Virus record (IMG/VR): IMGVR_UViG_3300045918_000845
Coordinates: 1 to 44,036 of that record
Reading direction: 5' to 3' (one strand)
Source: a virus
Length of the DNA: 44,036 nucleotides
The notes below the pieces were generated by a model that was given only the letters and a program-made list of their open reading frames with translations, was not told the origin of the DNA and made no database searches. Every line of letters starts with the position of its first letter. Position 1 is the first letter of the stretch. The translations under genes and the position numbers were made by a program. Shown piece by piece: positions 18,981 to 34,431 of the stretch.

Positions 18981-21900
18981 GCATATTATTGGGATTCGCC
19001 TGACCGCCGACAACAAGGAAGCGGTCGGGGCGATCAAGGAAGTGCGCGCAGAGCAGGATAAGCTCGGCGCTTCGGCGCGCACGCTCGGCTCTGAGGCGGA
19101 CAAACTCAACGCGGCCAATGGTCGCTTAAGCGAATCATTGAACACGGTGAAGAGGTCCAGCGCGGAAGTATCTGCCGCTGTCGCACGTCAAAACTCCGTA
19201 TCTGAAAGTCAGCAGAAATATTTTGATGCACAACGCGACAAGGCGTATGCGCTAGCCAACGGATATAAAGAAGTCGAAGGGCAATTAATCAAAATTTCAG
19301 CCGCCTCGTCTGCGGATGTTGCGGCTAACGATGCGCATACCGGATCGGTTAAAACCAACTCGGCGGCAATTCGTGAATCACTGGTGCTGATGCGCGAGGC
19401 ATCAAGGGGTGACTCCACAAAGATGGCCGGTAGTGCGTCTATCCTGGCTAACGCGTTCGGTATCTTGCCCGCTATGCTAAGCCCTGTCGGGATCGGTATT
19501 GGTGCGGTGGTCGCGGCGGCTGCCGGCATGGCCTACGCTTTTGAAAAAGCTCGCGTCGAGACGGACGCGATGAATAACGCGCTGGCTGTGACTAACAACT
19601 ACGCCGGGATGACGCGCAGCGGGATGGACTCTCTAGCCCGAAGCATGGCGGACAGCGGACAGATCACCGTCGGCGCCTCCAAGGATATTGTTACCGCGCT
19701 GGTCGCCTCCGGGCAGATCGGCGCGCAGGCGATGGGCGAGGTTGCACAGCTATCGGCCAACTATGCCCGCGCGACCGGCACCGATATTGAAAAAGTGGCG
19801 CCGGAGTTGGTAAAGCTATTTTCCGATCCGCTCAAGGGCGCGGAAGAGCTGAACAAGTCGATGCACTTTTTAACTGCTGCCGATTTGGATTACATCGAAT
19901 CATTGCAGCGCGCCGGTGAAGAGCAGAAGGCGCAATTAGTTTTAGCCGAAAAGGCCAATGCTCATCTCGATAAAGAAACGCAAAGTGTCGGGTTACTAAC
20001 GTCGGCATGGAACGGATTAAAGAATGCCTACAATGGCATTGGTCACGTACCTACAACGCAAGAGTTAATCGGTCAAAAAAAGCAGGAAATTCAGACAGCC
20101 GATCAGCGATCAAACGCCGGTACGGGTTTTTTGGGTAAGAGTCATGCTGAATTAGCTGGCGAGCTGGCAATGCTGCAAGCCAAGGATGAGTTTGAGAAGA
20201 AAGATGTCGCGGCGCAAAATGAAAAAAATGAGCTGGTCAAGAACGAACTGAAACTTAGGAAGGAATTAGAAAATACCGACAGTAGCAAAGTAGCCGCGTT
20301 GCAAGTAACAATGGATTGGCTTAACAAGCAAACTCAAACCGTGAAGGTGATGGAGCGCGAGGCGCAGATTGCAGATCAGATCAACCAGATTGGCGATAAG
20401 AAAACCAAAGCGCAGCGCGAAGCGGAGGCGCTGAATAAATCGCACGCCAAGGAAGCTGCGGATGCGGAAGCGCGTATATTTATTCTGAATACCGAAACCG
20501 ACTCAACGATCAAGCTGGTTGAAGCACAGAAGAAAATTATCGAAGTACAGGCGCAAGCTAGTCATGGTGTGATTACCCAATCTGACGCGAACTACAAAAT
20601 TAAACAACTTATTCCTGAAGCGGTTGCGCAGATAGACAAGTCTGCGTCCGATAAGGAAGCTGCGGATGCGAAAAAACTCACCGAGCTTTCTACGCATAAG
20701 GCCGAGTCGATAGCACGCGAAGCAGATTCGATCAGTAAAAGAAGTATCGCGCTCGATCTCAGTACGGCATCAATGGGGAAGTCAAAGGACGAGATTGATG
20801 CGTTAAAAATTGCGGAAATTGAAAAATCGATTGCTGAGGATAAGGCGGCAATGCAATGGCTATCGCAAAACACCGTGATCGTGGCGGGGCTTGAGAAGAG
20901 AATTGCAGCAAACGAAAAGCTTATCAAGTCGGAACAGAATAACGCTCAGGAAGTCGCCAGCAAAAAATACGCACCCCAACTTGAAAACGTTTATTCCAGC
21001 GCCTTTGCGCCCGGGGCAAATGTTATTGACAGCACTGCAAAGAGTTTCGGCAAGTCGATGGGGACTGAATTTAGCAAGGGTGTTAATGACACGCTGGTGA
21101 ACGCGACCGGGATGAAGGAATTCTCTGCCAATATCGGCGCGTCTATGGCTGCGGGTATGGATTGGGTTAAGGGGATTAACTGGAAGGGCACCAAAAATGC
21201 AGACGGCAGCATGTCACAAAGTTCCGCGCCGAATTTGACCGCAGCACAAGGAAGTACATTGGCGCTGGCCGCAATCCCCATCGTGCTGTCTGCCTTGAGC
21301 AGCAGTAACGCCTCTATGAGTGCCGCACAGCGTCAATCGCTTACTGGAACCGGCAGTGTGTTGGGAGACTATGGCGCAAAGTCCGCCTCGATCGCAAACG
21401 GGATTTCTATCATCGCGCAAGCGCAGTTAGACGCTACACCGGTCACCGTGAGTATGGCCGCATCTCTCAAGTCAGTCGATGCGAGCATGCAGAACTTTTT
21501 AACTATTGCACTAAAGGCGGTAGGCGGTTCGCTCAACTCAAATTTGGGCGTTGTTTCTGGCGGCATGGCAAACCCTTTGCTCAAAATAGAGGGGGCTGCT
21601 GTCGGCGCGGGGATTGGCGCGCTAGTTGGTTCAATTGTGCCGGTAATTGGAACAGCCATCGGGGCGGTGGTTGGCGGCATCGTGGGCGCAATGGGTAGCA
21701 GCGCCAGCCAAACTGTCACCGATAAAGGGATGAGCATTAATGGCACGCTAGGCCAATTTAGGCAAGGGCAGGGAAGCATTAACCAGTACGTGACCGCAGA
21801 TCAAACGCAGAACATCCTTGGCTTGTATTCAAACACTACGAGTTCAACCAATACGGCGGGCGTAAGCGCGGACGTAAACAAGGCATTTGGCACGATATTC

Positions 21901-23925
21901 GACGGCGTGGCAGCTACCTTTAAAACGGCGGCTACGGCGATGGGGCAGGACACCTCGACTTTTGACGCGAAGATGAACGCTATGCAAGTCGGAATAGGTA
22001 GCCTGAGTTTGATGAACATGACGGTGGCAGAACAACAAAACGCCGTGATGAATGCTATTTCAAAAGCTGCGGATGCGATGGCGACGCAATTATTCCCGAC
22101 GATGGTGAAGTTTCAAGTAGCCGGAGAAGGTATGGCGCAAACCGTGATCAGAATCACTGCGCAGAATCAATCTGTAGTGACGGCATTGAATCACCTGGGC
22201 GGCGCGCAAACGGTGGCGAGTGCGAGTACATTTACGCTGACGGATAACTTAACCAAGGCCGCAGGTGGTCTGGATAGGTTGCTGGCATCGTTGCAGCAGT
22301 TCACCAAGTTTTACACCACTAGTTCACAGCAGATCAGCAATGCCTATGCAGACTCCAAGGCGCAGTTTAGCGGCACAGCGATTGATAGTCTGGTAAGCAA
22401 CAAAACTACCGCTACACAGATGGCGGCTTATGTCACGGCGGCGATGACGAGCGGAATTACCGACGCGCAAAAGGCACAGATTCTTGCCGCGTCGAATTCC
22501 TTCTCTGCATTCTTAACTGGATTACAGGCGGGGATTGACCGCCTGCGTCAATCGTATGACACGATGATTTCATCGCGGGATGCCGTAGTTGGCGCAATCA
22601 CTGGCCTGAAACAATTCAATCTGACACTGACAGACTTTCAGCGGTCGATTAAAGTTGATATGGCGATGCAGACAAATCCGCTAGCTAAATATCAGGACGC
22701 TCAAGCATTCTTTGGTCAAATCGCCGCCAAGGCCGCAACAGGTGACACGGTTGCACAGAATCGTTTGCAATCTGCCGGGCAGGATTTATTAAACGCCTCG
22801 AAAACGTCAGCCAGCTATACCCAATATCAGGCGGATATGGCGAAGGTTCTAAACGCAACTACCAATACCATCTCGTTCAACGACACGGTGATTGCCAATG
22901 GCGTAAGCATGTTGACGGCACTCGATACGCTTAACAATATCTCAGACGTGATTCGCCAGAATACTTTCGCAACCAACACGGCCACGATTGACCTGGCTAA
23001 AAAAATGGCGGACTATGCCACAGCGACAAATAACTATTCTTTGACTGCATCGACATCAAGTGCCGACGCAATCACCGCGCTGAATAGTTATATTGGCAAG
23101 ATTGATACAAACATGAAATCGTTGATTGACGCGATAACGACTGTCGTTAACGCGCTGCCAAAACCTGCGGCGGTAGTGACATCTACATCGACGTATACAA
23201 CTGCACCATATGCGTTCGTCCCGGCTACCGGATCAACAACGCCAGCCGCTGGAAATTACGGGCAGTCAACGCCAGTAGTCACATCGAGTAATGCCATTAT
23301 TAATACCGTAAATAATCAGGCTGCGCCATCGTTGACGGCAATAAGCGCGCCATCAACAACACAGACAGTTATTCCGTATGGACCGGATAACCCAGACCCT
23401 GCGCACACCAAAGCTAAAAATGCCGCATTGCTAATATTAAATAATGCAATAGCCGATACGGCAGCAGCTAATGCGTCATATCAAACTTGGAGCAATACCA
23501 ATTACCCCTCCCAAGCGCAAAATAACGCTGCGCTTTTTACTATCGCTACTGCGCAAAATAAAGCAAAAAATGCTCAGGCAACAGCCCAATCTGCCTATGA
23601 TCTTCTACCATCCTACTCAATCGGATCCAACTACATCACGCAAGATGGCCCAGCCTATATTCACCAAGGCGAAGAAATAACCCCTCGCCCATTTGTGGAC
23701 TTGCAACGTTCAGCCCGCGACGAAACCAATGCGCTACTCAAGCGCCTGACAGAAAGTAATTCCGCGCTGGTTACCGAGGTAAAGCAGCTCCGCACCGAAA
23801 ATCATGACGCACAAATCGCCATCGCGATCAGCAGCGGTAAAACTGCGAACAATACAGATAAAGCTACAAAAATTTTAACTCGCTGGCAAGCTCTTGGGCT
23901 TGGGGTAAAGGTGCTGCCAGCATGA
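18970..23925 (+). CDS. Tail length tape measure protein (1651 aa)
   Basis: The longest ORF in the window. It has long helical heptad stretches rich in Ala, Lys, Glu and Gln. The region near residue 170 ('VGIGIGAVVAAAAGMAYAF') and another near residue 885-910 are membrane-like and may take part in DNA ejection. The C-terminus has 'YIHQGEEITPRPFVDL' followed by a short coiled coil. By the rule of about 0.15 nm per residue, a tail of roughly 250 nm is predicted. That estimate is inference. The start is GTG 18970, overlapping the chaperone ORF. The size confirms a long tail, hence siphovirus morphology. Confidence 0.9.
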   Translation: MAAEHIIGIRLTADNKEAVGAIKEVRAEQDKLGASARTLGSEADKLNAANGRLSESLNTVKRSSAEVSAAVARQNSVSESQQKYFDAQRDKAYALANGYKEVEGQLIKISAASSADVAANDAHTGSVKTNSAAIRESLVLMREASRGDSTKMAGSASILANAFGILPAMLSPVGIGIGAVVAAAAGMAYAFEKARVETDAMNNALAVTNNYAGMTRSGMDSLARSMADSGQITVGASKDIVTALVASGQIGAQAMGEVAQLSANYARATGTDIEKVAPELVKLFSDPLKGAEELNKSMHFLTAADLDYIESLQRAGEEQKAQLVLAEKANAHLDKETQSVGLLTSAWNGLKNAYNGIGHVPTTQELIGQKKQEIQTADQRSNAGTGFLGKSHAELAGELAMLQAKDEFEKKDVAAQNEKNELVKNELKLRKELENTDSSKVAALQVTMDWLNKQTQTVKVMEREAQIADQINQIGDKKTKAQREAEALNKSHAKEAADAEARIFILNTETDSTIKLVEAQKKIIEVQAQASHGVITQSDANYKIKQLIPEAVAQIDKSASDKEAADAKKLTELSTHKAESIAREADSISKRSIALDLSTASMGKSKDEIDALKIAEIEKSIAEDKAAMQWLSQNTVIVAGLEKRIAANEKLIKSEQNNAQEVASKKYAPQLENVYSSAFAPGANVIDSTAKSFGKSMGTEFSKGVNDTLVNATGMKEFSANIGASMAAGMDWVKGINWKGTKNADGSMSQSSAPNLTAAQGSTLALAAIPIVLSALSSSNASMSAAQRQSLTGTGSVLGDYGAKSASIANGISIIAQAQLDATPVTVSMAASLKSVDASMQNFLTIALKAVGGSLNSNLGVVSGGMANPLLKIEGAAVGAGIGALVGSIVPVIGTAIGAVVGGIVGAMGSSASQTVTDKGMSINGTLGQFRQGQGSINQYVTADQTQNILGLYSNTTSSTNTAGVSADVNKAFGTIFDGVAATFKTAATAMGQDTSTFDAKMNAMQVGIGSLSLMNMTVAEQQNAVMNAISKAADAMATQLFPTMVKFQVAGEGMAQTVIRITAQNQSVVTALNHLGGAQTVASASTFTLTDNLTKAAGGLDRLLASLQQFTKFYTTSSQQISNAYADSKAQFSGTAIDSLVSNKTTATQMAAYVTAAMTSGITDAQKAQILAASNSFSAFLTGLQAGIDRLRQSYDTMISSRDAVVGAITGLKQFNLTLTDFQRSIKVDMAMQTNPLAKYQDAQAFFGQIAAKAATGDTVAQNRLQSAGQDLLNASKTSASYTQYQADMAKVLNATTNTISFNDTVIANGVSMLTALDTLNNISDVIRQNTFATNTATIDLAKKMADYATATNNYSLTASTSSADAITALNSYIGKIDTNMKSLIDAITTVVNALPKPAAVVTSTSTYTTAPYAFVPATGSTTPAAGNYGQSTPVVTSSNAIINTVNNQAAPSLTAISAPSTTQTVIPYGPDNPDPAHTKAKNAALLILNNAIADTAAANASYQTWSNTNYPSQAQNNAALFTIATAQNKAKNAQATAQSAYDLLPSYSIGSNYITQDGPAYIHQGEEITPRPFVDLQRSARDETNALLKRLTESNSALVTEVKQLRTENHDAQIAIAISSGKTANNTDKATKILTRWQALGLGVKVLPA

Positions 23926-25082
23926 TTATCATCGAACCCAGTCCAGTGACCAGCGTGTCGCTTGTTTCCAGCTCGATCCCGGAGACGGACGGGCTGCGCG
24001 ATTACTATTCCAATCCGGCGCTCACCTACAATCTGGGCGATAAAGTGCGCGTGGTTAATCCCTCAGTCAGCGGCGCGGCGGCTACGATCTGCACCGCCGG
24101 TTCACCCGCCGTATTCAACTGGGCATCGCATGGCTTGGTGGATGCAATCCCGGTGCTATTAGCTTCGACCGGCACATTGCCGCCCGGCTTCGTGGCGGGG
24201 GTGTTGTACTGGATTATCAATAGCGTGCCAGGCACCTTTAATCTGTCCGCCAAAAAGAATGGCATCCCGCTCGATGCGGCAAGTGCGGGCACCGGGACGC
24301 TGACGATCACCGCGCAGGTACATCAAGTTTTCAAGGCGCTTCAGGCTGTTCCCGTCAATACCTATCCGCTGCAAAGCATTACTTACTGGCAGCCGCTTGG
24401 ATCAACCAATCTGTATTCCATGTTCGATGATGTGAATGGCTCCCAATCCTCCGCGATGGATAGCATTACGGTTGTTTTTCAAGGCAGCGGCCGCCTCGAT
24501 TCTGTCGCGCTTAAAAATGTGTCGGCGGCAACCGTGCGTTTCCAGATGTCTACCGTGGCCGACGGGGCTGTTTACGATAAAACGTACAGCATGGTATCCA
24601 GCTCCGGGATCAACAATCTGTATAAATACTTTTTGGAACCGATTGTGCGGAAAGACGAATGCATCGAAATTGATATGCAGCCGTACAACAATCCGCTTAT
24701 CACTATCACCTTATCGGCCCCGGGTGAAACTGTACTGTGCGGAACCTGCAAATTCGGCAAGCGCAATGATATTGGCGAGTCGCAGTACGGTGCAAAGATC
24801 GGCATTATCGATTACTCGATCAAAGCAAAAGATGCGTGGGGGCACTACTATTTCCAAGAGGGGGATTATTCGGACACCGGAGATTTTACCGTGGTCGTGG
24901 ACAACGCTTTTATAGGGGAACTCAAGCGCAGGCTGGCCAAACTCCGCGTTACCCCTGCCATCTACATCGGCAGCACGAATTTTGATGGTTTATCTTATTA
25001 CGGGAAATTCAATGATTTCAACATCGTCATCCCCGGCCCCCTTACCTCAATCTGCACTATTTCTATCGAGAGCCTAATATGA
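23922..25082 (+). CDS. Tail-tip / distal tail protein (386 aa)
   Basis: It follows the tape measure gene by a 4-nt overlap and precedes the DGR target protein by two genes. Residues about 45-130 carry a small beta-rich domain ('PAVFNWASHGLVDAIPVLL' ... 'GTFNLSAKKNGIPLDAASAG') of a type repeated in many phage tail fibre proteins. The C-terminal half has 'YKYFLEPIVRKDECIEIDMQ' and ends in a hydrophobic beta strand. A distal tail or baseplate-hub role is inferred from position. Confidence 0.6.
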   Translation: MIIIEPSPVTSVSLVSSSIPETDGLRDYYSNPALTYNLGDKVRVVNPSVSGAAATICTAGSPAVFNWASHGLVDAIPVLLASTGTLPPGFVAGVLYWIINSVPGTFNLSAKKNGIPLDAASAGTGTLTITAQVHQVFKALQAVPVNTYPLQSITYWQPLGSTNLYSMFDDVNGSQSSAMDSITVVFQGSGRLDSVALKNVSAATVRFQMSTVADGAVYDKTYSMVSSSGINNLYKYFLEPIVRKDECIEIDMQPYNNPLITITLSAPGETVLCGTCKFGKRNDIGESQYGAKIGIIDYSIKAKDAWGHYYFQEGDYSDTGDFTVVVDNAFIGELKRRLAKLRVTPAIYIGSTNFDGLSYYGKFNDFNIVIPGPLTSICTISIESLI

Positions 25083-25570
25083 CCACGATTACACAGACGA
25101 TTGCTGTGATGCCGCCCTCGCCAAATCGAGGGATTCAGAACCCGGATGTCTACACCGCCATTGCGGATGCTTTTATGGCCGCGCTCACTGCGATGGGGCC
25201 GCAGTACACCACCTTGGCCGCACAGTTCAATATCGTGGCAGGAGAGGTTAACGCCAATGCGCTAGCGGTGGCTTCGCTGGTTCAGAGCGCACTCAGCGCC
25301 GGGCTTTCAAATGCCGCTGCCAATGCGCTGGCGGCAGCGGCATCGCAGGTTTCCGCAGCAGCATCAAGCGCGGCCGCTCAGGCTGCATGGACGGCGGCGC
25401 TGGCGGCCAATCCCAGCCTAAACCCAATTATCAGCATGCACCTCTCGACGGTGCTGGCGGATTGCAGCGTGCCTAGTTATTACAACGCATATTCAATAGG
25501 GCCACTAACAATAGGAGAGGGAGTGAATGTCACTCTCGATGATTTTTCAAACTGGACAATTCTTGGATAA
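25079..25570 (+). CDS. Alanine-rich tail-tip protein (163 aa)
   Basis: The middle consists of a long Ala/Ser/Gln-rich helical stretch, probably a trimeric coiled-coil stalk. The C-terminus is aromatic and beta-rich ('PSYYNAYSIGPLTIGEGVNV'). It is flanked by tail-tip and DGR variable protein genes and overlaps the former by 4 nt. It may be a fibre stalk or adaptor that holds the variable protein, but no family is recognised. Confidence 0.5.
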   Translation: MTTITQTIAVMPPSPNRGIQNPDVYTAIADAFMAALTAMGPQYTTLAAQFNIVAGEVNANALAVASLVQSALSAGLSNAAANALAAAASQVSAAASSAAAQAAWTAALAANPSLNPIISMHLSTVLADCSVPSYYNAYSIGPLTIGEGVNVTLDDFSNWTILG

Positions 25571-25579
25571 GGAGAAATT

Positions 25580-26947
25580 ATGAGCAATTTAAATTTACGC
25601 AGCATCACCGGAAAAGACGGTCAGCCGGTATCGTTCCCAACGGGTATTACCATCGGCACTGGAGCTGCTGGAACAGTAAATAACATCGGCATCCCCGGGC
25701 AGCGCGGATTCGGTGTCGGCATCTGTCCGAATGCCTTGCCTGCCGGAATGGTCGAAATGACCGGGTGCCGCGATCAGTCCAGCGATAACTACGGTCACTA
25801 TCAATATTCGGATGGTTCCGTGATGATCTGGTGGCCAGTCGCTTATATCAAGCGCGGTACCGGCGCGAACGGTTTGGCGATCAATCAGGATTCCATTGTT
25901 CCGTTCAGCACGTACCCTGATGTCGCCACGGCTAATGCGGCGGGTTACTCAGTCCCTCGTGCGTTCTACGACAACGGCGCGCTTCAGCCCGGATATTTCC
26001 GAGACGCCTTCAAGTGCAGCAATAACGGAGGCATCGCATCCAGCATCAAGAACGGCATCCCGGTCACGAGCGCGCAGCGCGGAATCTTGGCCACAGCGGT
26101 ATTTTCAGCTTGTACAGGCAACGCTCAAGCACCTGCCAATTTTTATTACGGCGCAATCGCCGCAGCCAAATCGCGCGGCAATAATTTCTTTCCTGCCAGC
26201 ATATTTATGAAAACATGGGCGGCTACGGTCAGCAAGGTTCACGGACAGGCCGCAACATCATCCACGTTTTGCGCATGGTATGACCCTGCTGGAATTACTA
26301 ATTTCCCCAAGGGCCTGAACAACAATGCACTGGGTGACGTGAACGATGCCGCGATAGCATATATTTCTGATGGCAACGGAACCTATGCAGGTGCTGGGAA
26401 AACAGGTAGTGCGAACTTCTTTGCTCGCACTACGCACAATGGGCAGAACTGCGGTTCGGCGGATGAAAATGGTCTGATTTATGAGATTTGCCTCGGACTG
26501 ACTTCTGATGCGACCAACATCTATATTCTGAACACCGCTGCTGCGATGAAAAATATCACCGCAGGCAATGCGCTGGCGACGGATGCGTGGGGCGCAACCG
26601 CCTATGCCGCACAGTACACGAGCCTCGGAACCACGTTCGGCGCACTGTGGGCAACTGGCGCAAACCGCACTACTTATTACGGCTCTGCCACCCAGGTGTT
26701 CAATGCCGCAGTCAGCGGTAACGCATGGGCTGCAACAGGAGCGGGCATCCCGTTAGCTACAGGCATCGGCGGCACTAACGCATTCGGACAAGACTATTTC
26801 CTGGACTACAAGCCCAATGAGATGTGCCCGATCGCTGCGTTCGGCTGGAGCGATGGTGCGGGCGCGGGGGTGTGGGCGTTGCATCTCTACGTTGTGCGGG
26901 GCGACACGAGCAACGCCGTGGGCTTTCGCTCGGCCTTGTATCTCTGA
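25580..26947 (+). CDS. DGR variable protein, tail-tip receptor-binding candidate
   Basis: A 455-aa protein with a strong AAGGAG RBS. The last 41 residues, from M415, are encoded by the variable repeat VR. The variable segment contains 'GVWAL' and ends in 'VGFRSALYL', the C-type-lectin-like scaffold signature (W...GFR) common to DGR targets such as Mtd. Residues that differ from the template are F421, G422, D425, G428, H435, Y437, V438, D442, S444, A446 and, at the boundary, A452. The N-terminal part ('PAGMVEMTGCRDQSSDNYG' onward) is a beta-rich fibre-like domain. It lies at the tail end of the tail operon, as expected for the receptor-binding protein. Confidence 0.9.
   Translation: MSNLNLRSITGKDGQPVSFPTGITIGTGAAGTVNNIGIPGQRGFGVGICPNALPAGMVEMTGCRDQSSDNYGHYQYSDGSVMIWWPVAYIKRGTGANGLAINQDSIVPFSTYPDVATANAAGYSVPRAFYDNGALQPGYFRDAFKCSNNGGIASSIKNGIPVTSAQRGILATAVFSACTGNAQAPANFYYGAIAAAKSRGNNFFPASIFMKTWAATVSKVHGQAATSSTFCAWYDPAGITNFPKGLNNNALGDVNDAAIAYISDGNGTYAGAGKTGSANFFARTTHNGQNCGSADENGLIYEICLGLTSDATNIYILNTAAAMKNITAGNALATDAWGATAYAAQYTSLGTTFGALWATGANRTTYYGSATQVFNAAVSGNAWAATGAGIPLATGIGGTNAFGQDYFLDYKPNEMCPIAAFGWSDGAGAGVWALHLYVVRGDTSNAVGFRSALYL
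26822..26936 (+). repeat. DGR variable repeat (VR)
   Basis: It aligns without gaps to the TR at 27377-27491 (offset 555). There are 14 mismatches, and all of them are at positions where the TR has A (A to G 8, A to C 3, A to T 3); the TR has 25 adenines in the span. The last mismatch (26934) lies at the 3' boundary and may be flanking divergence, leaving 13 secure ones. The 3' end CGTGGGCTTTCGCTCGG is identical in both and would serve as the IMH. Confidence 0.97.
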
Positions 26948-26958
26948 CGGCCTGAGCG
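26927..26958 (+). other. Hairpin/cruciform at the 3' end of VR
   Basis: CGCTCGGCC (26927-26935) pairs with GGCC-T-GAGCG (26949-26958), a 9-bp stem with one bulged T and a 13-nt loop that includes the end of the variable protein gene and its stop codon. The TR copy lacks the downstream arm. A DNA hairpin just beyond VR is required for efficient retrohoming in the Bordetella phage DGR, so this could be the equivalent target-recognition element. Confidence 0.6.
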
Positions 26959-26964
26959 ATAGCG

Positions 26965-27375
26965 ATGGGCCTACACGATGAAGCGAAGCTGGATCAGAAA
27001 TTTATGGAATTCGCAAAGCTGATGAATATTCATCTCAATCATTTTCCGAACCATGAAAAGTACGGACTCGCGCTGGAAATTCGGCGCGCAGCTTATGAAA
27101 CTTACGGCTTCATCGTGGAAGGCCAAAAGCGTTTTCACAAAAAAACTGCGCTTTCTAATCTGGATATTCGGCATGAACAGTTACGGATGCTGATTCGCTT
27201 AGCGTACACGCTGGGCTATTTCGAATTCAAGGACGGAAAACGCGTAGAGAAATCACCGGTCGAACAGGGCGAGCATCGTTACCTTGCGCTCTCTCGGCTG
27301 GTGGACGAATTAGGCAGAATGCTCGGCGGATGGATTATTGCCGAGCGGCAGCTTGATAAACGGGAGGCGTCTTAA
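26965..27375 (+). CDS. avd: DGR accessory variability determinant (Avd-like)
   Basis: A 136-aa, helical, basic protein that matches the Avd (four-helix bundle) pattern: 'FAKLMNIHLNHFPNHEKY', then 'LALEIRRAAYETYGF' and 'LRMLIRLAYTLGYF'. Avd forms a pentamer that binds the RT and the template RNA and is needed for cDNA synthesis. The ORF lies between the variable protein gene and the TR, the classic position, and ends 1 nt before the TR. The start codon is ATG, 17 nt after the VP stop. Confidence 0.9.
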   Translation: MGLHDEAKLDQKFMEFAKLMNIHLNHFPNHEKYGLALEIRRAAYETYGFIVEGQKRFHKKTALSNLDIRHEQLRMLIRLAYTLGYFEFKDGKRVEKSPVEQGEHRYLALSRLVDELGRMLGGWIIAERQLDKREAS

Positions 27376-27376
27376 T

Positions 27377-27491
27377 ATGTGCCCGATCGCTGCGTACAAC
27401 TGGAGCAATGGTGCGAGCGCGGGGGTGTGGGCGTTGAATCTCAACAATGTGCGGGGCAACACGAACAACAACGTGGGCTTTCGCTCGGACT
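27377..27491 (+). repeat. DGR template repeat (TR)
   Basis: The invariant donor of sequence information, transcribed into RNA and reverse transcribed with errors at A. In the VP reading frame it has nine AAY codons (AAC or AAT), the usual design that lets mutated A positions give many residues without creating stop codons. It starts 1 nt after the avd stop codon and lies 139 nt upstream of the RT gene. Confidence 0.97.
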
Positions 27492-27630
27492 CGGAATCAC
27501 CTCAAAGACTGCAGCTAGGTCAAAGTGGAACCAAGGGAGACGCTTTCCGGCGCGTGGCTTTTGCCACGGCGAAATCGGATGGCTTCCGTCTTTCTGGTAG
27601 GGCGATTAATCGTCTCGAAAGTCAGGCGAT
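27492..27630 (+). ncRNA. DGR spacer between TR and RT (probable template RNA 3' part)
   Basis: A 139-nt stretch without a credible gene. In the Bordetella phage DGR, cDNA synthesis is primed in the equivalent spacer RNA, which folds with Avd-RT. Short complementary stretches exist here (for example GGCTTTTGCCACGGCG), but I cannot fold it reliably. An ORF crossing TR and this spacer is not a protein gene. Confidence 0.55.
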
Positions 27631-28680
27631 ATGAAGCGCATCGGACATTTATACGAACAGGCATTTACCCGTGAAGCGTTGCTGATCGCTTTTCATGCGG
27701 CGGCACGTCACAAGCACGGCAAACGCGCCTGCTTTAATTTTGAAAAACATCTGGCGTTAAATCTGGATGATCTATACAACGAACTCGCCGACGGTAGTTA
27801 TGTACCACGGCCTTACTATAGCTTTATGGTGTACGAACCCAAGGCGCGCCGCATCTATGCGCCCACGTTTCGCGATTTGGTGGTACAGCACGCAATCTAT
27901 CGCGTGATCTCGCCCATCTTTGAACGTGGATTCATCGATCAATCGTTTGCGTGCCGCGTCGGGCTTGGAACGCACAAGGCCGCTGATTACGCACAGGCGG
28001 CCTTGCAGCGTATCCCGCGCGACAGCTACACGCTCAAGCTCGACATCCGCAAATTCTTCTATCGTATTGATCGCTGCATCTTGCGTGGACAGATCGAGCG
28101 CAAGATCAAAGATGCGCGATTTGTTGAACTTATGATGATGTTTGCCGACCACGGAGAGCCTATCGGCATTCCCATCGGTAACCTGCTATCGCAACTCTTC
28201 GCGCTGATTTATTTGAACCCGCTGGATCACTATATTAAGCGTGAGCTAGCGGTGCAAAATTATTGCCGCTACGTGGACGACTTCGTGATTTTCGGCGTAT
28301 CTCGCAAACTTGCCATTGAATATCAACGCCTGATTGTTGAGTTCATCGGCTTTGAATTGAAATTGGAATTATCTAAATCAACCCTTGCGCCCGTCTCGCG
28401 TGGGATTAATTTCGTCGGGTATCGCACCTGGGCAGGAAAGCGTTTTATCCGTCGCCACAGTTTAGGAAATTTTCGCAAAGCGATGCGGCGCGGAAATATC
28501 GAATCAGCAGCATCTATTTTCGGGCATGCACGTCATACCCATTCTTTGCAGCACATGCTTAACTTTACTAAGGAGCTTCACTATGATTACTATCGTCAGT
28601 TACCAAAAATATATCGACGCTCAAATCACACGCACACTGCGCATGCCGATGGACGATCAGCATCAAATGCTCGGCATTGA
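27631..28680 (+). CDS. DGR reverse transcriptase
   Basis: A 349-aa RT of the DGR lineage. Motif A is 'LKLDIRKFFYRID' (D138). The catalytic box is 'YVDD' (Y214-D217). The 'PIGNLLSQL' stretch (182-188) carries the SQ signature that distinguishes DGR RTs from retroviral or group II QG forms. The C-terminal thumb is 'RHSLGNFRKAMRRGN'. It lies directly after avd, TR and spacer, all on the same strand as the target gene. Catalytic residues D138, D216 and D217 are intact, so activity is plausible. The last 98 nt overlap the next gene in another frame. Confidence 0.95.
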   Translation: MKRIGHLYEQAFTREALLIAFHAAARHKHGKRACFNFEKHLALNLDDLYNELADGSYVPRPYYSFMVYEPKARRIYAPTFRDLVVQHAIYRVISPIFERGFIDQSFACRVGLGTHKAADYAQAALQRIPRDSYTLKLDIRKFFYRIDRCILRGQIERKIKDARFVELMMMFADHGEPIGIPIGNLLSQLFALIYLNPLDHYIKRELAVQNYCRYVDDFVIFGVSRKLAIEYQRLIVEFIGFELKLELSKSTLAPVSRGINFVGYRTWAGKRFIRRHSLGNFRKAMRRGNIESAASIFGHARHTHSLQHMLNFTKELHYDYYRQLPKIYRRSNHTHTAHADGRSASNARH

Positions 28681-29002
28681 ACTAGCTACACTGGCGGACG
28701 GCACCACTTACGTCAGTCTACCGGACGGTGCAAAGCTCCCGACAGATCAGCCGGAAGAAATCGCCGCCAGCATTAAAATCGTGAAACCAACGGCATCTCA
28801 ATTACTGGATATTAAGGCGGCTAGTCCTCACGTGCGTTTTATTAATCAGCAAATCGCTGATCAAATATCTGCACACTACAGCATGGCCGATGAAATCAAG
28901 TTAATCCGCACTGCGCCATCTCCAGAGCACGCCGTTTATAACCAGCACTGCGAGGATTGCCGCGCATGGGGCCGCGCTGAAAAAGCAAAACTCGGACTCT
29001 AA
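28583..29002 (+). CDS. Hypothetical protein overlapping the RT gene (139 aa)
   Basis: The start is ATG 28583, with an AAGGAG RBS at 28570-28575 that lies inside the RT gene. The N-terminus is 'MITIVSYQKYIDAQITRTL' and the C-terminus has 'HCEDCRAWGRAEKAKLGL' (Cys-X2-Cys). The function is not recognised. Genes here in tail modules are often tail-fibre assembly chaperones. The long overlap shows tight packing and coupling to the DGR. Confidence 0.6.
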   Translation: MITIVSYQKYIDAQITRTLRMPMDDQHQMLGIELATLADGTTYVSLPDGAKLPTDQPEEIAASIKIVKPTASQLLDIKAASPHVRFINQQIADQISAHYSMADEIKLIRTAPSPEHAVYNQHCEDCRAWGRAEKAKLGL

Positions 29003-29024
29003 ATATCATCAATGGAGGCTAAAA

Positions 29025-29324
29025 ATGACTAACGATCAAATGCTGTTAAATATTTTACTAATCGCGTACTTGTGTCTGCTGTGTTTTGATTTTTACTCAA
29101 CATATTATGCCGTTACGTCGCACGTCGGATATGAAAAAAATCCGCGTATGGCTTGGCTGATCAGCAAAACAAATCTTTTCGCTGCGCTTGCCATCAAAAC
29201 GATATTCAGCATCGCGTTGGGGGTGTGGCTGTATTGCGACACTCAGATATTGGGGCTGGGGATACTAACCGTCGTTTACGTCTGGTACATGTACGGAAAC
29301 TACAGGGTTATTGAAGGGAAGTAA
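29025..29324 (+). CDS. Small membrane protein, DUF5658-like (99 aa)
   Basis: Three hydrophobic segments near residues 6-30, 50-71 and 75-92. The pattern 'DFYSTYYAVTSHVGYEKNP' followed by 'NLFAALAIKTIFSIAL' resembles DUF5658-type inner-membrane proteins. A good GGAGG RBS lies 8 nt upstream of the ATG. It is the last plus-strand gene before a block of minus-strand accessory genes, which marks it as a possible moron or superinfection factor. Confidence 0.65.
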   Translation: MTNDQMLLNILLIAYLCLLCFDFYSTYYAVTSHVGYEKNPRMAWLISKTNLFAALAIKTIFSIALGVWLYCDTQILGLGILTVVYVWYMYGNYRVIEGK

Positions 29325-29366
29325 CGTTGATCGCCGCAGGGCTATTATCGCTTGATTTTTAGCGCC

Positions 29367-29606
29367 TTAGAATGGAACAAAGTTCAACGTGCCGCTTACT
29401 GTGCCGCTGCGCCCTGTAGCCGCATAGGGCGACATGCTTGAATTTTCCAATATTGGACTGTTAGCGAAACTAACTGAACCGGCAATTAGGCTGCTGGTGG
29501 TATGAATTGCGGGCGCTACGATACTTGGCCACATAGATCTCATTGTGGAGTTCCGGGAGAGGTTGCTGGCGGATTCGGTTGTCTTTGTCTGTTGGCATCG
29601 GGGCAA
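29367..29606 (-). CDS. Doubtful small ORF (79 aa) downstream of the lipoprotein
   Basis: Ser/Thr-rich reading frame whose C-terminal part ('YAATGRSGTVSGTLNFVPF') is compositionally protein-like. Its proposed start lies within the lipoprotein gene in another frame, and no clear RBS was found. It could be a broken tail- or fibre-like remnant, or a continuation of the lipoprotein lost by frameshift. Low confidence. Confidence 0.25.
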   Translation of the reverse strand: MPRCQQTKTTESASNLSRNSTMRSMWPSIVAPAIHTTSSLIAGSVSFANSPILENSSMSPYAATGRSGTVSGTLNFVPF

Positions 29607-29830
29607 TCGATGCGCAGTTCCTTGCGATCAGACCCTGCAAATTCCGAGAGCGTTGTATAGCCTAATGGGCAAATTTCATTTGCTTTGTCGTAGCATATAT
29701 TCCATCCGAGAGCGGAGCCACAAGCAATCAAGTACTCAGTTACCCCGTTGGTGTGTTTAATCTGCTGAGTCGTAGTACACCCCATTAGTGTGGACAATAG
29801 GATAACGACTGCAATGTGTGTTGGCTTCAT
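29540..29830 (-). CDS. Small lipoprotein (96 aa)
   Basis: An N-terminal signal peptide with a canonical lipobox 'LMGC' (Cys at residue 18) and a cysteine-rich mature part ('YLIACGSALGWNICYDKANE', 'CPLGYTTLSEFAG', 'IDCPDANRQRQ'). It resembles a family of small bacterial outer-membrane lipoproteins and is likely expressed from the lysogen as a moron. An exclusion or envelope function is possible but unproven. Confidence 0.7.
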   Translation of the reverse strand: MKPTHIAVVILLSTLMGCTTTQQIKHTNGVTEYLIACGSALGWNICYDKANEICPLGYTTLSEFAGSDRKELRIDCPDANRQRQPNPPATSPGTPQ

Positions 29831-29979
29831 ATCATCAGACTTCGTTTAAATGATGCGCTCTAGCTACTGCTACGAGGGCATTAGACATAGAATTAGGTTG
29901 TCGTTGTCACCATCACGCCCCTCAGTTAAACAGCGATAGTAAAGCCAACTGCTTTCTATGGGCAAGCGGTGGAATCTAG

Positions 29980-30186
29980 TTATTTTCTTATCAACGTTTC
30001 TCTCGTTTGAGAGGTGGACTGGATTACCGTTGGAACATGCTTTGCATCGTGCTCGTTAATAACATCAAAAATAATTTTAGGCTGTTCAGATTCCTTTAGC
30101 TTACCCAGAAGTTCATCTCCCCATTTTATATCAAGTAGCGCATGAGTCAATGTTTTAATTGCCTTAACTGTTTCTTCGTTCGACAT
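29980..30186 (-). CDS. Small hypothetical protein (68 aa)
   Basis: A hydrophilic helical protein with a good AGAGGGA RBS on the minus strand. It is probably co-transcribed with the Arc-like gene, which lies 18 nt upstream. No family recognised. Confidence 0.6.
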   Translation of the reverse strand: MSNEETVKAIKTLTHALLDIKWGDELLGKLKESEQPKIIFDVINEHDAKHVPTVIQSTSQTRETLIRK

Positions 30187-30204
30187 AGTGTTTCCCTCTA
30201 TTAT

Positions 30205-30495
30205 TTAATTGAAAAGAGATAGCAGCGCAAGCTGTTTTTCTACGGGCATGCGACGGAATATAGTGAGCAGCTTGCGCTCGATGTCAGTGATGTCAGATGT
30301 GTAACCACCAGAAACGGGGTGCTCCATCGTGTAGCGCGGATGCTCATCAATAGCCATATTTTCAAAGCTGCGCTTTAGCCTGAGAACGATCTCAACATTC
30401 AAACTTCGGCCATTTATTTTGGCCTCATTACTGAGTCGTTCTTTTAGGTCTGGCGGCATTCTTATGCCAAATGGTGGGATGTCTCTTACTTTCAT
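30205..30495 (-). CDS. Arc-like ribbon-helix-helix regulator
   Basis: The N-terminal 45 residues fit the Arc/Mnt pattern: a beta strand 'VRDIPPFGIRMPPDLKERLS' and a helix with 'NEAKINGRSLNVEIVLRLKR'. The C-terminus has an added 'DIERKLLTIFRRMPVEKQL' helix that may aid oligomerisation. The start at ATG 30495 is favoured; an upstream in-frame ATG at 30522 adds nine residues. Divergent to it is a second, smaller Arc-like gene, and the shared intergenic region holds operators. It is a candidate for the lysogeny switch. Confidence 0.75.
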   Translation of the reverse strand: MKVRDIPPFGIRMPPDLKERLSNEAKINGRSLNVEIVLRLKRSFENMAIDEHPRYTMEHPVSGGYTSDITDIERKLLTIFRRMPVEKQLALLSLFN

Positions 30496-30537
30496 TTCTC
30501 GCGCTTTCTCATGTTCCACCATGTAACCATAAATAAG

Positions 30538-30566
30538 TTGACATGTGGTGTGTCACTGTGTAATGT
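30538..30566 (+). promoter_or_regulatory. Sigma70 promoter for the plus-strand Arc-like gene
   Basis: TTGACA (30538-30543), 17-bp spacer, TAATGT (30561-30566). It is the best plus-strand promoter match I found in the regulatory region. The -10 overlaps a direct repeat that is likely an operator. Confidence 0.78.
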
Positions 30567-30584
30567 GTGTGTCTCACAGTGTAA
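30553..30584 (+). promoter_or_regulatory. Tandem operator repeats
   Basis: TCACTGTGTAA (30553-30563) and TCACAGTGTAA (30574-30584) are direct repeats with one mismatch, 21 bp apart, about two helical turns. Within them CACTGTG and CACAGTG also form an inverted repeat. The first covers the -10 of the promoter. Binding of an Arc-like protein here would repress transcription. Confidence 0.65.
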
Positions 30585-30598
30585 CCATTGAGGCAAAA

Positions 30599-30769
30599 AT
30601 GAAGATTGCAGCAACAGCAAAAGATAAGTCAGTTCGGGTGCGATTCCCCGAGGCAGTACTAGAGAAGCTGAATGAGTCATCCGCACAGGAAGGACGTAGC
30701 CGAAATACGGAAATCATTAAGCGGCTAAGTGAAAGTCTCGGCCTCGGACGGCACAAGTCCAGAAGATAA
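30599..30769 (+). CDS. Arc-like ribbon-helix-helix regulator (56 aa)
   Basis: A short Arc/MetJ-type DNA-binding protein: beta strand 'KSVRVRFPEAVLEKLNESSA' then helix 'QEGRSRNTEIIKRLSESLG'. The start is ATG 30599 with GAGG upstream; a longer in-frame ORF begins at 30545 but would start within the promoter. It is divergent to the minus-strand Arc-like gene; together they look like a two-repressor switch, analogous to phage P22 Arc/Mnt or the Cro/CI layout. Confidence 0.78.
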   Translation: MKIAATAKDKSVRVRFPEAVLEKLNESSAQEGRSRNTEIIKRLSESLGLGRHKSRR

Positions 30770-30776
30770 ATAGGTA

Positions 30777-30810
30777 GTCCCGCCCTACGGTTGTCGCCGT
30801 AGTGCGGGAC
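30777..30810 (+). other. Very stable stem-loop in the regulatory region
   Basis: GTCCCGC (30777-30783) pairs with GCGGGAC (30804-30810) and CTACGG (30785-30790) with CCGTAG (30797-30802), with a hexaloop TTGTCG and one C-T mismatch. It lies right after the Arc-like stop. There is no T-run, so it is either a weak terminator, a processing site or part of a regulatory RNA. Confidence 0.6.
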
Positions 30811-30864
30811 GGGTGCTCGTGATACTCGCTCGCTTTGTCAGCAGCTACAGTATCCCGCTCACCC
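30811..30864 (+). other. Second stem-loop with CTCGCTCGCTT loop
   Basis: GGGTG...GATACT pairs with AGTATC...CACCC (6 + 5 bp with an internal mismatched part). The loop contains CTCGCTCGCTT (30825-30835), the same 11 nt as in the loop of the stem at 10326-10376. It lies ahead of the CII-like gene and may be a leader structure. No T-run follows. Confidence 0.5.
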
Positions 30865-30902
30865 TCCAACATTGAAACATTAAGTTTTCGGAGGGTTTAA
30901 CA

Positions 30903-31364
30903 ATGGGCAAGTCAGTCTCACAAGACGCGCAGGCGGCGTTTTATCGGGTGGTACATGATCGCGATGTGGCGAAGTTGGCGGCGCAGATGGGGATGTCTCC
31001 CGGTGTGCTGTACAACAAGGCTAATCCGACCGAGGGCAACCACCATAAGCCCACGCTGGCCGATTGCATCATCATCACTAATCTCACCGGCGATAAGCGT
31101 ATCGCGCAAGCCTTTGCGGCTTCGGTGGGGGGCGTGTATCACGACCTGCCAGACCTCTCTACGCTTTCCACAGACGCTTTGATCGTTCACCTCATGCGTA
31201 TTCAGATTCGCAACGGCTCGTTTCATCACGAGATTCACGAGTCGCTTTCCAATGACGACAAGATCGACGCAAAGGAGTTTGCCCGCATCAAGAGCGAGGC
31301 GCAGGAATATATCGCGATGATTTTAGAGTCACTGGCACGCATGAGGGAGATGGGCGGTGGCTAG
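30903..31364 (+). CDS. CII-like phage regulator
   Basis: A 153-aa protein of the phage CII-like (CP76) family: 'FYRVVHDRDVAKLAAQMGMS' then 'PGVLYNKANPTEGNHHKPTL' is the typical N-terminal DNA-binding motif with its 'LYNKxNP' signature, followed by a helical C-terminus. GGAGGG lies upstream of the ATG. It is the first gene of the long early operon and probably influences the lysis-lysogeny choice. Confidence 0.82.
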   Translation: MGKSVSQDAQAAFYRVVHDRDVAKLAAQMGMSPGVLYNKANPTEGNHHKPTLADCIIITNLTGDKRIAQAFAASVGGVYHDLPDLSTLSTDALIVHLMRIQIRNGSFHHEIHESLSNDDKIDAKEFARIKSEAQEYIAMILESLARMREMGGG

Positions 31365-31554
31365 GCAGTACACCTCCCCCGCTCCCCAGTTTGCGTTACC
31401 ACTGGAGAGTACGGAGCCGCCTGAAAACTTGATGCGTGCCGCATGGCGGCGCAGTCGGTTGAAGTTGGATTTTGATGAGGCGATGAAGGTGCGCCACTTC
31501 CGAATCTGTTTGAAGCACTTGGCAATGAGTATGGCTAACGAGAGGAGAAAGTGA
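31357..31554 (+). CDS. Small basic protein (65 aa)
   Basis: A basic, arginine-rich protein from a GTG start (31357) overlapping the CII-like gene by 8 nt. 'MRAAWRRSRLKLDFDEAMK' then 'RHFRICLKHLA' indicates a helical DNA- or RNA-binding helper, but no family is recognised. Confidence 0.55.
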   Translation: MARQYTSPAPQFALPLESTEPPENLMRAAWRRSRLKLDFDEAMKVRHFRICLKHLAMSMANERRK

Positions 31555-31775
31555 TGGACATTATTCGGTTTCACCCGGCAACAAAACTGGCAGATATTAA
31601 CCGTCTTGCCCGTGAATTAGGCGGGCGCGTGGTATGCGTGAACGGTTCGGTGCGCATCCGCCGCATGCAAGAGTTAACCGGCGAGGCGATGAAGCGCATC
31701 GAGCGGGAGGATTTTGAGGGCGCGCTGGGCAATATTCGTTCAGCCATGGCGTTGATCGAGGGGGTGGCATGTTGA
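31554..31775 (+). CDS. Small hypothetical protein (73 aa)
   Basis: The start ATG 31554 overlaps the preceding stop by one base, with AGAGGAG upstream. The sequence 'RLARELGGRVVCVNGSVRIR' then 'AMKRIEREDFEGALGNIRSA' suggests a two-part alpha/beta-helix fold. Not recognised. Confidence 0.55.
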   Translation: MDIIRFHPATKLADINRLARELGGRVVCVNGSVRIRRMQELTGEAMKRIEREDFEGALGNIRSAMALIEGVAC

Positions 31776-31930
31776 TTACATTGCGCAGAGTTATCCGTAT
31801 GACTATTTCATCTTTTATAGGGGCAACGGAGTTGATAGCGAATACAGCTTTCTACCTCAAACAAGGGTATCGATTTGGCAATGCTGTGAACTTGGCCAGA
31901 AAAACTATTCCGATGCGGGGTGGGCGATGA
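31769..31930 (+). CDS. Short phage protein (53 aa)
   Basis: A small ORF with overlapping ends on both sides (ATG 31769 inside the previous gene, TGA overlapping the next ATG). 'LIANTAFYLKQGYRFGNAVN' followed by 'LARKTI' matches a pattern, an aromatic-G helix then A-x-x-L-A-R-x-T, that I have seen in short proteins of proteobacterial phage early operons. Function unknown. Confidence 0.6.
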   Translation: MLITLRRVIRMTISSFIGATELIANTAFYLKQGYRFGNAVNLARKTIPMRGGR

Positions 31931-32121
31931 GTTTACAAAATGAATTGCTTAACCTCGCTAGCAGGGTAGGTGTAATTGAGCATGAGCGGGATCGGCTTTT
32001 TTCACATCTGGCGCACGCTAACCAGGTGATGCAGTTACAGGATGCCGAGGTAGCAGAACTGAAGGCGCAACTAGCTTCGGCTCAGGCGATCAGTACGGGT
32101 TTGTTGTCACAGGTTTCATAA
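31927..32121 (+). CDS. Small coiled-coil protein (64 aa)
   Basis: Nearly the whole sequence is a heptad-repeat helix ('LLNLASRVGVIEHERDRLF', 'AEVAELKAQLASAQAIST'). Overlaps the preceding gene by 4 nt. No function assigned. Confidence 0.55.
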   Translation: MSLQNELLNLASRVGVIEHERDRLFSHLAHANQVMQLQDAEVAELKAQLASAQAISTGLLSQVS

Positions 32122-32147
32122 ATCAATATCAAAAAGGAGCGAGCGAA

Positions 32148-32804
32148 ATGTTAAAAAAATATCTGACCGAGGATGAGCAAAAGAAGTTGCTCACTGTTAT
32201 CAAGCAAACAAATACCGATGTGGCGCGGCGTGATTATTCTTTAATCAATCTGCTGATTAATTCCGGCATGCGCATTGGCGAGTGCCTGCGCTTGAGGGTG
32301 AACGATGCCGCCGCTGCTCTCAAGAGCGGCTATCTCTATATTCCCAAGGAGTACCGCAAGGGGCGCAAACACGATCACGAGGTACTAGTGACGGTTTCGG
32401 TTCGCCAGGCTTTGCACGAGCTGCTGTTGCTGCGTGTCGATGCAGAACTGGACGAGGCGCTGATTGTGTCGCGCAAGAGCGGTGGACGCAACTGGAGTGC
32501 GCTCACCGTGCGCGCCTTTGAGATGCGTGTGACCTACTGGGCAAAATTTGCCGGAATGCCGCAAGGCGTTAGCCCGCACTGGTTTCGCCACACCCGAGGT
32601 ATGAACATCGTGCGCCGCACTACTTCGAACGATCCTCTGGGCATCGCTAAGGCCGCGCTGGGGCATCGTTCTATCCGTTCCACCGAGATATACGCCCGGC
32701 AGTCGCGGGAATCGGTAGAAAAGGCGTTGCGCGAGGTCGATGCGAAGCCGAGATTACGGATAGCGGATTTGAGGAAGATGCATGAAGGGAGGGTAGGCGC
32801 ATGA
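32148..32804 (+). CDS. Short tyrosine recombinase
   Basis: Catalytic domain of a tyrosine recombinase with all key residues: R42 in 'SGMRIGECLRL', H144 and R147 in 'PHWFRHTRG', H173 in 'LGHRSI' and the nucleophile Y182 in 'TEIYARQ'. There is no N-terminal core-binding domain, so DNA binding may need a partner. It stands inside the early operon with a good AAAGGAG RBS, away from the integrase. Possible roles are inversion or excision, or resolution of replicated phage DNA. Confidence 0.82.
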   Translation: MLKKYLTEDEQKKLLTVIKQTNTDVARRDYSLINLLINSGMRIGECLRLRVNDAAAALKSGYLYIPKEYRKGRKHDHEVLVTVSVRQALHELLLLRVDAELDEALIVSRKSGGRNWSALTVRAFEMRVTYWAKFAGMPQGVSPHWFRHTRGMNIVRRTTSNDPLGIAKAALGHRSIRSTEIYARQSRESVEKALREVDAKPRLRIADLRKMHEGRVGA

Positions 32805-33025
32805 AGAAAAGTAAAGTCGTTTATCTCATGACTAATAGCCAAATGGTTACCGATGCATTGAAGAAATTGGGAAATCAAAAGTCATGCGCCATAGCAGAAT
32901 ATTGCGGACTCACTGGTCCTGCTCTATCTGGAACATTGGCAAGTTTGGAGAGACGGAAAATTATCGATTCCAGCTTAACTTCAGGCGGCGAAAAGTTTTT
33001 CTTTATGAGCGAGGTGGCAGCATGA
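32801..33025 (+). CDS. Small winged-helix-like protein (74 aa)
   Basis: The pattern 'VTDALKKLGNQKSCAIAEYC' followed by 'GLTGPALSGTLASLERRKII' is that of a MarR/winged-helix DNA-binding unit. Overlaps both neighbours by 4 nt. Probably a small transcriptional regulator in the early operon. Confidence 0.6.
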   Translation: MKKSKVVYLMTNSQMVTDALKKLGNQKSCAIAEYCGLTGPALSGTLASLERRKIIDSSLTSGGEKFFFMSEVAA

Positions 33026-33390
33026 TAACAATGACACTAAATGAGTTTCATGACGCTTTGAAGGCGCAAGGCGTTCCCATAGAGCATTGCGCATTCAAGT
33101 GCCCTATCTGCCAAACAATACAGTCGGGCATAAGCTTAATTTCCGCAGGAGCTGGAAAAACATTTGATGATGTTGAGCGTTACCTCGGATTTTCTTGCGT
33201 CGGGCGATTTACCAAGGCGGGGCCGCATAAAAAAGGCGCGGCGCCGGGTAAAGGGTGTGACTGGACGCTGGGCGGCTTATTTTGCATACACAAGCTGGAG
33301 GTGGTTACCGAGGATGGTATCAGACACCCCCGATTTGAATTGGCAACGCTAAAAGAAGCGCATGCCCTGATAAGCGAGGTGACGGCATGA
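33022..33390 (+). CDS. Cysteine-rich phage protein, VVA0879-like (122 aa)
   Basis: The start is ATG 33022, overlapping the previous stop. 'FKCPICQTIQSGISLISAG' is a zinc-knuckle-like 'CPxC' followed by 'FSCVGRF' and 'GKGCDWTLGGLFCIHKLEV', the pattern of the VVA0879-type phage family. No biochemical function is known. Confidence 0.68.
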   Translation: MITMTLNEFHDALKAQGVPIEHCAFKCPICQTIQSGISLISAGAGKTFDDVERYLGFSCVGRFTKAGPHKKGAAPGKGCDWTLGGLFCIHKLEVVTEDGIRHPRFELATLKEAHALISEVTA

Positions 33391-33800
33391 TTACCGAGAC
33401 AATAGAAGTAGTACAAATAGAGGCTGTCCCGTTAGAGATTTCATTCGGCGGCGTTATCTGGAAGAAAGTTGAGCGCCCCGATTCTGATCTTGAATATTCT
33501 GCTGTGACAGAAGACGGTAACGAAATCCGAGTTTATAACTATCCGCGTGGAGGCTGGTTCTGGGGTTGTGAATTTAAACAGATGCTTAAAAATATCGAAA
33601 CGCAGGGTATGAGTAAAGGAATTTCTGGCGTTGTAGATGATCGAGCTACCGCGATGCTGTGCTGCCTTGATGGAAAATCAATATTGATCGCAGACCTCAC
33701 GCTAATGTTGAATGTCGTGATGCCCGATTCGCAATACGCCAAAGGTTTCTGTGCGGGTCAGGATGACATCAAGGCGAAGATTGCAGAGGTGACAGCATGA
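33387..33800 (+). CDS. Hypothetical protein (137 aa)
   Basis: No recognised family. The sequence is acidic with a central aromatic segment ('NYPRGGWFWGCEFKQMLKN'). Overlaps both neighbours by 4 nt, so it is part of the coupled early operon. Confidence 0.6.
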   Translation: MITETIEVVQIEAVPLEISFGGVIWKKVERPDSDLEYSAVTEDGNEIRVYNYPRGGWFWGCEFKQMLKNIETQGMSKGISGVVDDRATAMLCCLDGKSILIADLTLMLNVVMPDSQYAKGFCAGQDDIKAKIAEVTA

Positions 33801-34048
33801 AATGCGCATGCGTATCAGACATCGAAAAGAGGGCGACCGAAAAGTTTAAAGAGCACAGTCCGTTTAAGCGGCCAGTTAAGCGGGTAGTCATGGGTGGTGT
33901 CACGCTAGCCATTACTGACGCACTGTGCGAATCAAGGACGGTGAATTATCTTGAAATTGAACTTGAAGGGCAAAATAAAATAGAGAAGATGGCGATGTTT
34001 CACACCTTCTGTCCATTCTGTGGCGTTAAAGAGGAGTCCAAAGCATGA
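33797..34048 (+). CDS. Small hypothetical protein with C-terminal zinc-knuckle pattern (83 aa)
   Basis: N-terminal 'CAC' and C-terminal 'FCPFCG' could bind a metal ion. The middle is basic and beta-rich. Coupled by 4-nt overlaps. Not recognised. Confidence 0.58.
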   Translation: MKCACVSDIEKRATEKFKEHSPFKRPVKRVVMGGVTLAITDALCESRTVNYLEIELEGQNKIEKMAMFHTFCPFCGVKEESKA

Positions 34049-34431
34049 ACGTCAAACAATCTACCGTCCCCATGCTCACGATCACCGGCGTTAAAGCGCT
34101 CGATCCGATCCGGGTATTCATTGAGGACTATACCGAAGGAAAAGCGCAGATAACGATCACTTGCTTTAGTAGTGCATGGGTCGGGTATTGGGGAGCGATG
34201 GGGCAGCGAAACATGCGCGAGTTTTTTACCAGTTGCGATGCCTCGTATCTGTCCACCAACCTTATAGTCAGCGACAACTTGAAGCGAGATAAGAGCAGCG
34301 AGAAATACCTTATTCGCATCATCGAAGCGGTACAGGTCGGATTGCGCGAGGTGATTACAGATGAATCAAAGCCATGCAAGCACGTGATCATTGTCGCGGA
34401 CGAATGCGCTATCTGTGGAGCACAAGCATGA
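34045..34431 (+). CDS. Conserved phage protein (128 aa)
   Basis: Contains 'ITITCFSSAWVGYWGAMGQ' and 'MREFFTSCDASYLSTNL', a pattern common in unannotated early phage proteins, and a C-terminal 'CAICG'. Function unknown. Coupled to neighbours by 4-nt overlaps. Confidence 0.62.
   Translation: MNVKQSTVPMLTITGVKALDPIRVFIEDYTEGKAQITITCFSSAWVGYWGAMGQRNMREFFTSCDASYLSTNLIVSDNLKRDKSSEKYLIRIIEAVQVGLREVITDESKPCKHVIIVADECAICGAQA

Follow-up and report, generated by a model that had tools for sequence, protein, structure and literature searches.

A complete diversity-generating retroelement with a predicted C-type-lectin-fold target in a phage tail module

The window analysed here is the whole 44,036-nucleotide stretch of the IMG/VR virus record IMGVR_UViG_3300045918_000845. 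Its plus strand carries, in this order, a tape measure gene (18970-23925), two genes, a target gene, avd, a template repeat (TR), a spacer, a reverse transcriptase (RT) gene and a short gene overlapping the RT end. The features of this diversity-generating retroelement (DGR) are the following:

25580-26947, plus strand: DGR target gene, 455 aa, with a C-terminal C-type-lectin (FGE-like) domain predicted from a structural model, Foldseek and a profile search
26822-26936, plus strand: variable repeat (VR), the last codons of the target (codons 415-452), delimited by direct comparison with TR
26919-26944, plus strand: inferred IMH region at the 3′ end of VR, from TR GACT and VR GCCT in related pairs
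26949-26971, plus strand: DNA hairpin/cruciform with a GATA (GRNA) loop, GGCCTGAGC-GATA-GCGATGGGCC
26965-27375, plus strand: avd, accessory variability determinant, 136 aa, from Pfam, phrog and NCBIfam
27377-27491, plus strand: TR, starting 1 nt past the avd stop and recognized by its A-only mismatches
27492-27630, plus strand: TR-RT spacer, a predicted structured RNA of 139 nt, from covariation
27631-28680, plus strand: DGR reverse transcriptase, 349 aa, from phrog, solved structures and the SQ motif
28583-29002, plus strand: downstream gene overlapping the RT end, found directly after the target in cassette-less relatives

Exact comparison of the two repeats reproduced what the first-pass annotation had read from the letters: an ungapped alignment of 115 bp with 14 mismatches, all at TR adenines (A to G 8, A to C 3, A to T 3), on 25 TR adenines, and none at the other 90 TR positions. 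The probability that 14 random mismatches would all hit the 25 adenines is 1.25e-11. TR adenines lie mostly within AAC/AAT codons, no mutable TR codon can be converted to a stop, and about 1e14 protein variants are reachable from TR. VR ends 8 nt ahead of the target stop codon, and codon comparison confirmed the 11 residue differences claimed for it (residues 421, 422, 425, 428, 435, 437, 438, 442, 444, 446 and 452). When both strands of the 44 kb record were scanned in an A-insensitive way, no further VR or TR was detected; the VR/TR pair scored 90/90, and the match ranking after it 42/90. The complete lack of non-A differences between VR and TR argues for recent homing. That two similar copies 555 bp apart are an ordinary diverged gene duplication has a negligible probability and is refuted by the pattern itself, with differences at 14 of 25 A sites versus 0 of 90 non-A sites and the same one-way substitution recurring in 66 pairs.

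Those 66 VR/TR pairs, from the window and its relatives, showed mismatches at 54% of A, 0.6% of C, 0.4% of G and 1.7% of T positions. The value for thymine corresponds to 26 of 1511 sites, compared with 0.4-0.6% for G and C, and in 24 of the 26 changes T is replaced by G, mostly at the first two codon positions and spread across many sites. Such mismatches can be seen, for example, in the related loci numbered L089, L113, L079, L038 and L049, while the window VR/TR pair has none. Possibly, this signal reflects a minor misincorporation at template U, or an unexplained drift of TR; we are doubtful that template U would be a second, weak site of mutagenesis for the RTs of this target family, and propose it only tentatively from the substitution counts. 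Throughout the 66 pairs, an A before G changed to G only (69/69), and an A before T mostly to C. The adenine changes appear to be context-dependent, and selection may also contribute.

At the 3′ end of the repeats, TR ends with GACT and VR with GCCT in 62 of 66 related pairs, and the mismatch of TR A27489 with VR C26934 is most readily interpreted as a fixed difference between IMH and IMH*. Because it is fixed in nearly all relatives, it is not counted as mutagenesis, leaving 13 changes at 24 adenines; thus all 14 annotated mismatches do fall at TR adenines, but about 13 of them would be mutagenic. The GATA-loop hairpin, inside which the avd start codon lies, is located 12 nt 3′ of VR, so that both an IMH and a GRNA-loop hairpin are found where phage-type DGRs have them. 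Its stem is imperfect, its 6 Watson-Crick pairs flanking an internal loop of GA/GA type, whereas the GRNA-loop hairpins of phage DGRs, located 4–34 bp past VR, were reported with stems of 7–10 bp (Guo et al., PMC3240598). A hairpin whose stem has 6 or more Watson-Crick pairs was present at 45 of 65 related DGR loci with a VR/TR pair, versus 1.6% of shuffles. Among 12 relatives without RT, it was absent in 8, and a copy or remnant was kept in 4.

Avd was found where it had been placed, between target and TR. It matched Pfam bAvd (PF22296) with 53.5 bits, above the cut-off of 40, and phrog_3206 Avd (6e-19), and the NCBIfam Avd model with 66.7 bits, under the cut-off of 80. The spacer between TR and RT contains covarying helices. 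An alignment of 29 sequences supported five helices with 94.6% of cells paired and 117 double-sided changes, versus 35 in shuffles; the covariation score was 0.48 versus 0.155 in shuffles, none of 500 shuffles reached it, and it dropped to 0.10 or less when the helix partners were slid. Single-sequence folding was not significant (z -1.5), and the covariation test was decisive. Searching Rfam with the spacer gave no match. The BPP-1 spacer is known to fold and to recruit bRT-Avd (PMC12875486), and by analogy the window spacer RNA may play the same recruiting role.

The RT carries within 27631-28680 all three motifs that had been listed for it, LKLDIRKFF, YVDD and IGNLLSQ (SQ), and it belongs to phrog_1423 (6e-104), as expected of a DGR-type RT. 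No interruption is seen in target, Avd, TR or RT, in agreement with the claim that all components are intact. Compared with the related locus L015, the RT showed a dN of 0.10 and a dS of 1.93; a dN/dS of about 0.05 indicates that it is under purifying selection. Its nearest solved structure was 8ub7 (E 5e-54), which we take to be the BPP-1 DGR enzyme; group II intron RTs reached 1.5e-21 at best. The structural paper on 8ub7 (Nature 2025) is cited in PMC12875486. Models of defence and group II RTs also match the window RT, as would be expected if the enzyme were a group II intron, retron or defence RT that has incidental repeats beside it; these matches are due to the RT fold common to all. The much better match to 8ub7, the SQ motif, Avd as a neighbour, the A-only repeats (P 1.3e-11) and the A-specific VR/TR pairs at 66 loci refute such an assignment, which we consider highly improbable. 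Moreover, of 73 non-redundant related loci with at least 1.8 kb of sequence downstream of the target, 62 have the RT after it.

Modelling of the target with AF2 on an 88-sequence alignment reached a mean pLDDT of 94, compared with 41 when only the 18 close sequences were used. The top PDB matches of this model in Foldseek were three chains of TaqVP (E about 1e-14; the best, 5vf4, with E 7.9e-15 and TM about 0.6), followed weakly by Mtd, and an independent profile search with the target returned 5vf4 as its sole match (E 1.7e-6). The structure prediction that the first-pass annotation had proposed for the C-terminal domain has thus given a lectin-type fold matching TaqVP, and we are confident in the modelled C-type-lectin-type fold, with VR at the 3′ end of the ORF that encodes it. 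The target was also called a tail protein, and here the position 3′ of the tape measure gene agrees, yet no named tail family does: searches of Pfam and NCBIfam with the target gave no family match, and so its role as a tail-module protein is assigned by position together with the fold. Among its viral matches, many bear the annotation tail collar fiber protein, and a search against plasmids gave no match. As for this fold family in general, the variable residues would be expected on one exposed face of the protein.

The first-pass annotation had also spoken of a prophage. Three tyrosine recombinase genes are encoded in the window (32148-32804, 40937-42016 and 42990-44036), the first consisting of a catalytic domain only (218 aa); the record itself is a stand-alone IMG/VR virus contig without host flank. 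From these recombinases, it is plausible that the phage is a prophage. The structural half of the phage also carries a PAPS-reductase-like gene (5901-6560), a ParB-like gene (6530-7243) and a DUF932 gene (9249-10112). A megablast search of phage records with the window gave no match. Its primase is 61% identical to those of Burkholderia phages and 68% in genomes of the order containing a Rhodocyclaceae relative, which is suggestive of the host, and the phage probably infects Proteobacteria. Relatives of the target were found in MAGs and isolates, mainly of Beta- and Gammaproteobacteria, as well as in Zeta- and Alphaproteobacteria and Desulfuromonadales-type lineages. In Psychrobacter sp. 72-O-c there are three DGR loci (L048, L049, L050): two lie on the same contig and agree in both VR and TR, and the third, which differs, is on another contig.

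Loss of the avd-TR-RT cassette recurs among these relatives. Four loci (L073, L101, L046 and L063) keep the lectin-fold target and lack the cassette; in L073 (4001-5818) only 24 nt separate the target from the downstream homologue of window 28583-29002, and no RT match exists anywhere in its 34 kb record. Two further loci, read by eye, appear to be partial losses, L112 by a deletion in place that stretches between the middle of avd and a point close to the RT end and L124 by a truncated avd with unrelated sequence in the place of RT. Such matched relatives, with the target and without the cassette, offer a natural with/without comparison.

Variation of VR in populations and related phages, which the first-pass annotation had proposed to look for, is seen in sister phages of the window (L004, L005 and L006, with an RT 78% identical to the window RT). 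L004 and L005 have identical TRs. Over 5.4 kb they are separated by 19 substitutions and one 3-bp indel; VR, with its 115 bp, accounts for 17 of these substitutions, each at the position of a TR adenine. Between L005 and L006, 4 of 6891 positions differ, 2 of them in VR. Likewise, L007, L008 and L016 have one common TR sequence and different VRs at about 92–93% overall identity. Sequence comparison of the sister phages shows, in our reading, recent adenine-directed change within the target family, consistent with mutagenic retrohoming. No such change separates the two copies of the window phage: IMGVR_UViG_3300045825_000820 (L003/L017; 34263 bp, with the same first base as the window judging by its size and offset) is identical across the compared parts (19580-34263), VR included. 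A degenerate pattern scan of IMG/VR for the same TR with a different VR returned only this identical record. Thus, no VR variation is seen in the window phage because the sole other sequenced copy has the same VR.

Perhaps, then, the DGR was formerly active and is now silent in the window phage, its parts intact and its VR frozen. The identical VRs of the two sequenced copies and the recurrent cassette loss in relatives (the six loci named above) would fit this; however, both copies may stem from one population, every ORF is intact, the RT keeps its low dN/dS against L015, the spacer RNA and IMH are conserved, and VR and TR are free of non-A divergence. We judge a silenced element improbable, and infer instead from the intact genes, the low RT dN/dS and the lack of non-A drift that the window DGR copy is itself active.

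Taken together, our analysis supports reading the locus as a complete DGR whose target has a C-type-lectin fold and lies in a phage tail module, and we consider it very probable that it is a BPP-1-type DGR of a temperate phage, rewriting the C-terminal lectin-type domain of its target. All parts are present at this locus and are conserved, VR and TR differ at adenines only, and the fold predicted for the target is lectin-type; the biochemical steps are proposed by analogy with BPP-1. An avd-TR-spacer-RT transcript would fold via its structured spacer and be copied by RT-Avd into a cDNA with random bases opposite template adenines. This cDNA would replace VR by retrohoming, with the IMH and the GATA-loop hairpin as guides, and about 15 residues at most would be changed in the C-terminal C-type-lectin-type domain. 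The target may bind a receptor, and the purpose would presumably be to alter which host surface gets bound.

More than 30,000 DGRs have already been catalogued (PMC8144416); the class is well known, and the window element is a well-formed further DGR rather than a new kind of system. It is a clean and complete case beyond the well-studied gut and Bordetella ones. The family to which it belongs comprises at least 66 related VR/TR loci, most of them in environmental phages and prophages of Proteobacteria, and offers a covariation-supported spacer RNA without an Rfam entry and a fixed IMH marker.

The gene order of BPP-1 (mtd-avd-TR-brt) is that of the window, with TR directly after avd in both and a spacer of 144 nt versus 139 nt in the window. 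The two RTs are about 35–38% identical and share the SQ motif, and both systems have A-only mutagenesis, a C-terminal VR and a GRNA-loop hairpin past VR. Nevertheless, the window target has no sequence similarity to BPP-1 Mtd (BLASTP E 1.7) and a weak fold similarity (E 0.01-0.3), the Avd proteins are barely similar by BLAST, the window IMH is not GC-only and its hairpin stem has an internal loop. A closer RT, 59% identical, is found in Pseudomonas phage Bise (OR683401), with the same order, the GACT/GCCT marker and a VR/TR pair in which 9 of the 25 adenines, and no other base, are changed; its target is shorter and distant (27% over 242 residues), and its DGR genes are recorded merely as “reverse transcriptase family protein” and “four helix bundle protein”. 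TaqVP of the Thermus aquaticus DGR (PDB 5vf4, PMC6328139) is alike in target fold and in the C-terminal position of VR; at 15% identity, it is a solved variable protein of another DGR and no close relative. Finally, the phage DGR clades of Roux et al. 2021 (PMC8144416) are, like the window element, phage-borne, with tail-attachment-type targets and C-type-lectin VR domains.
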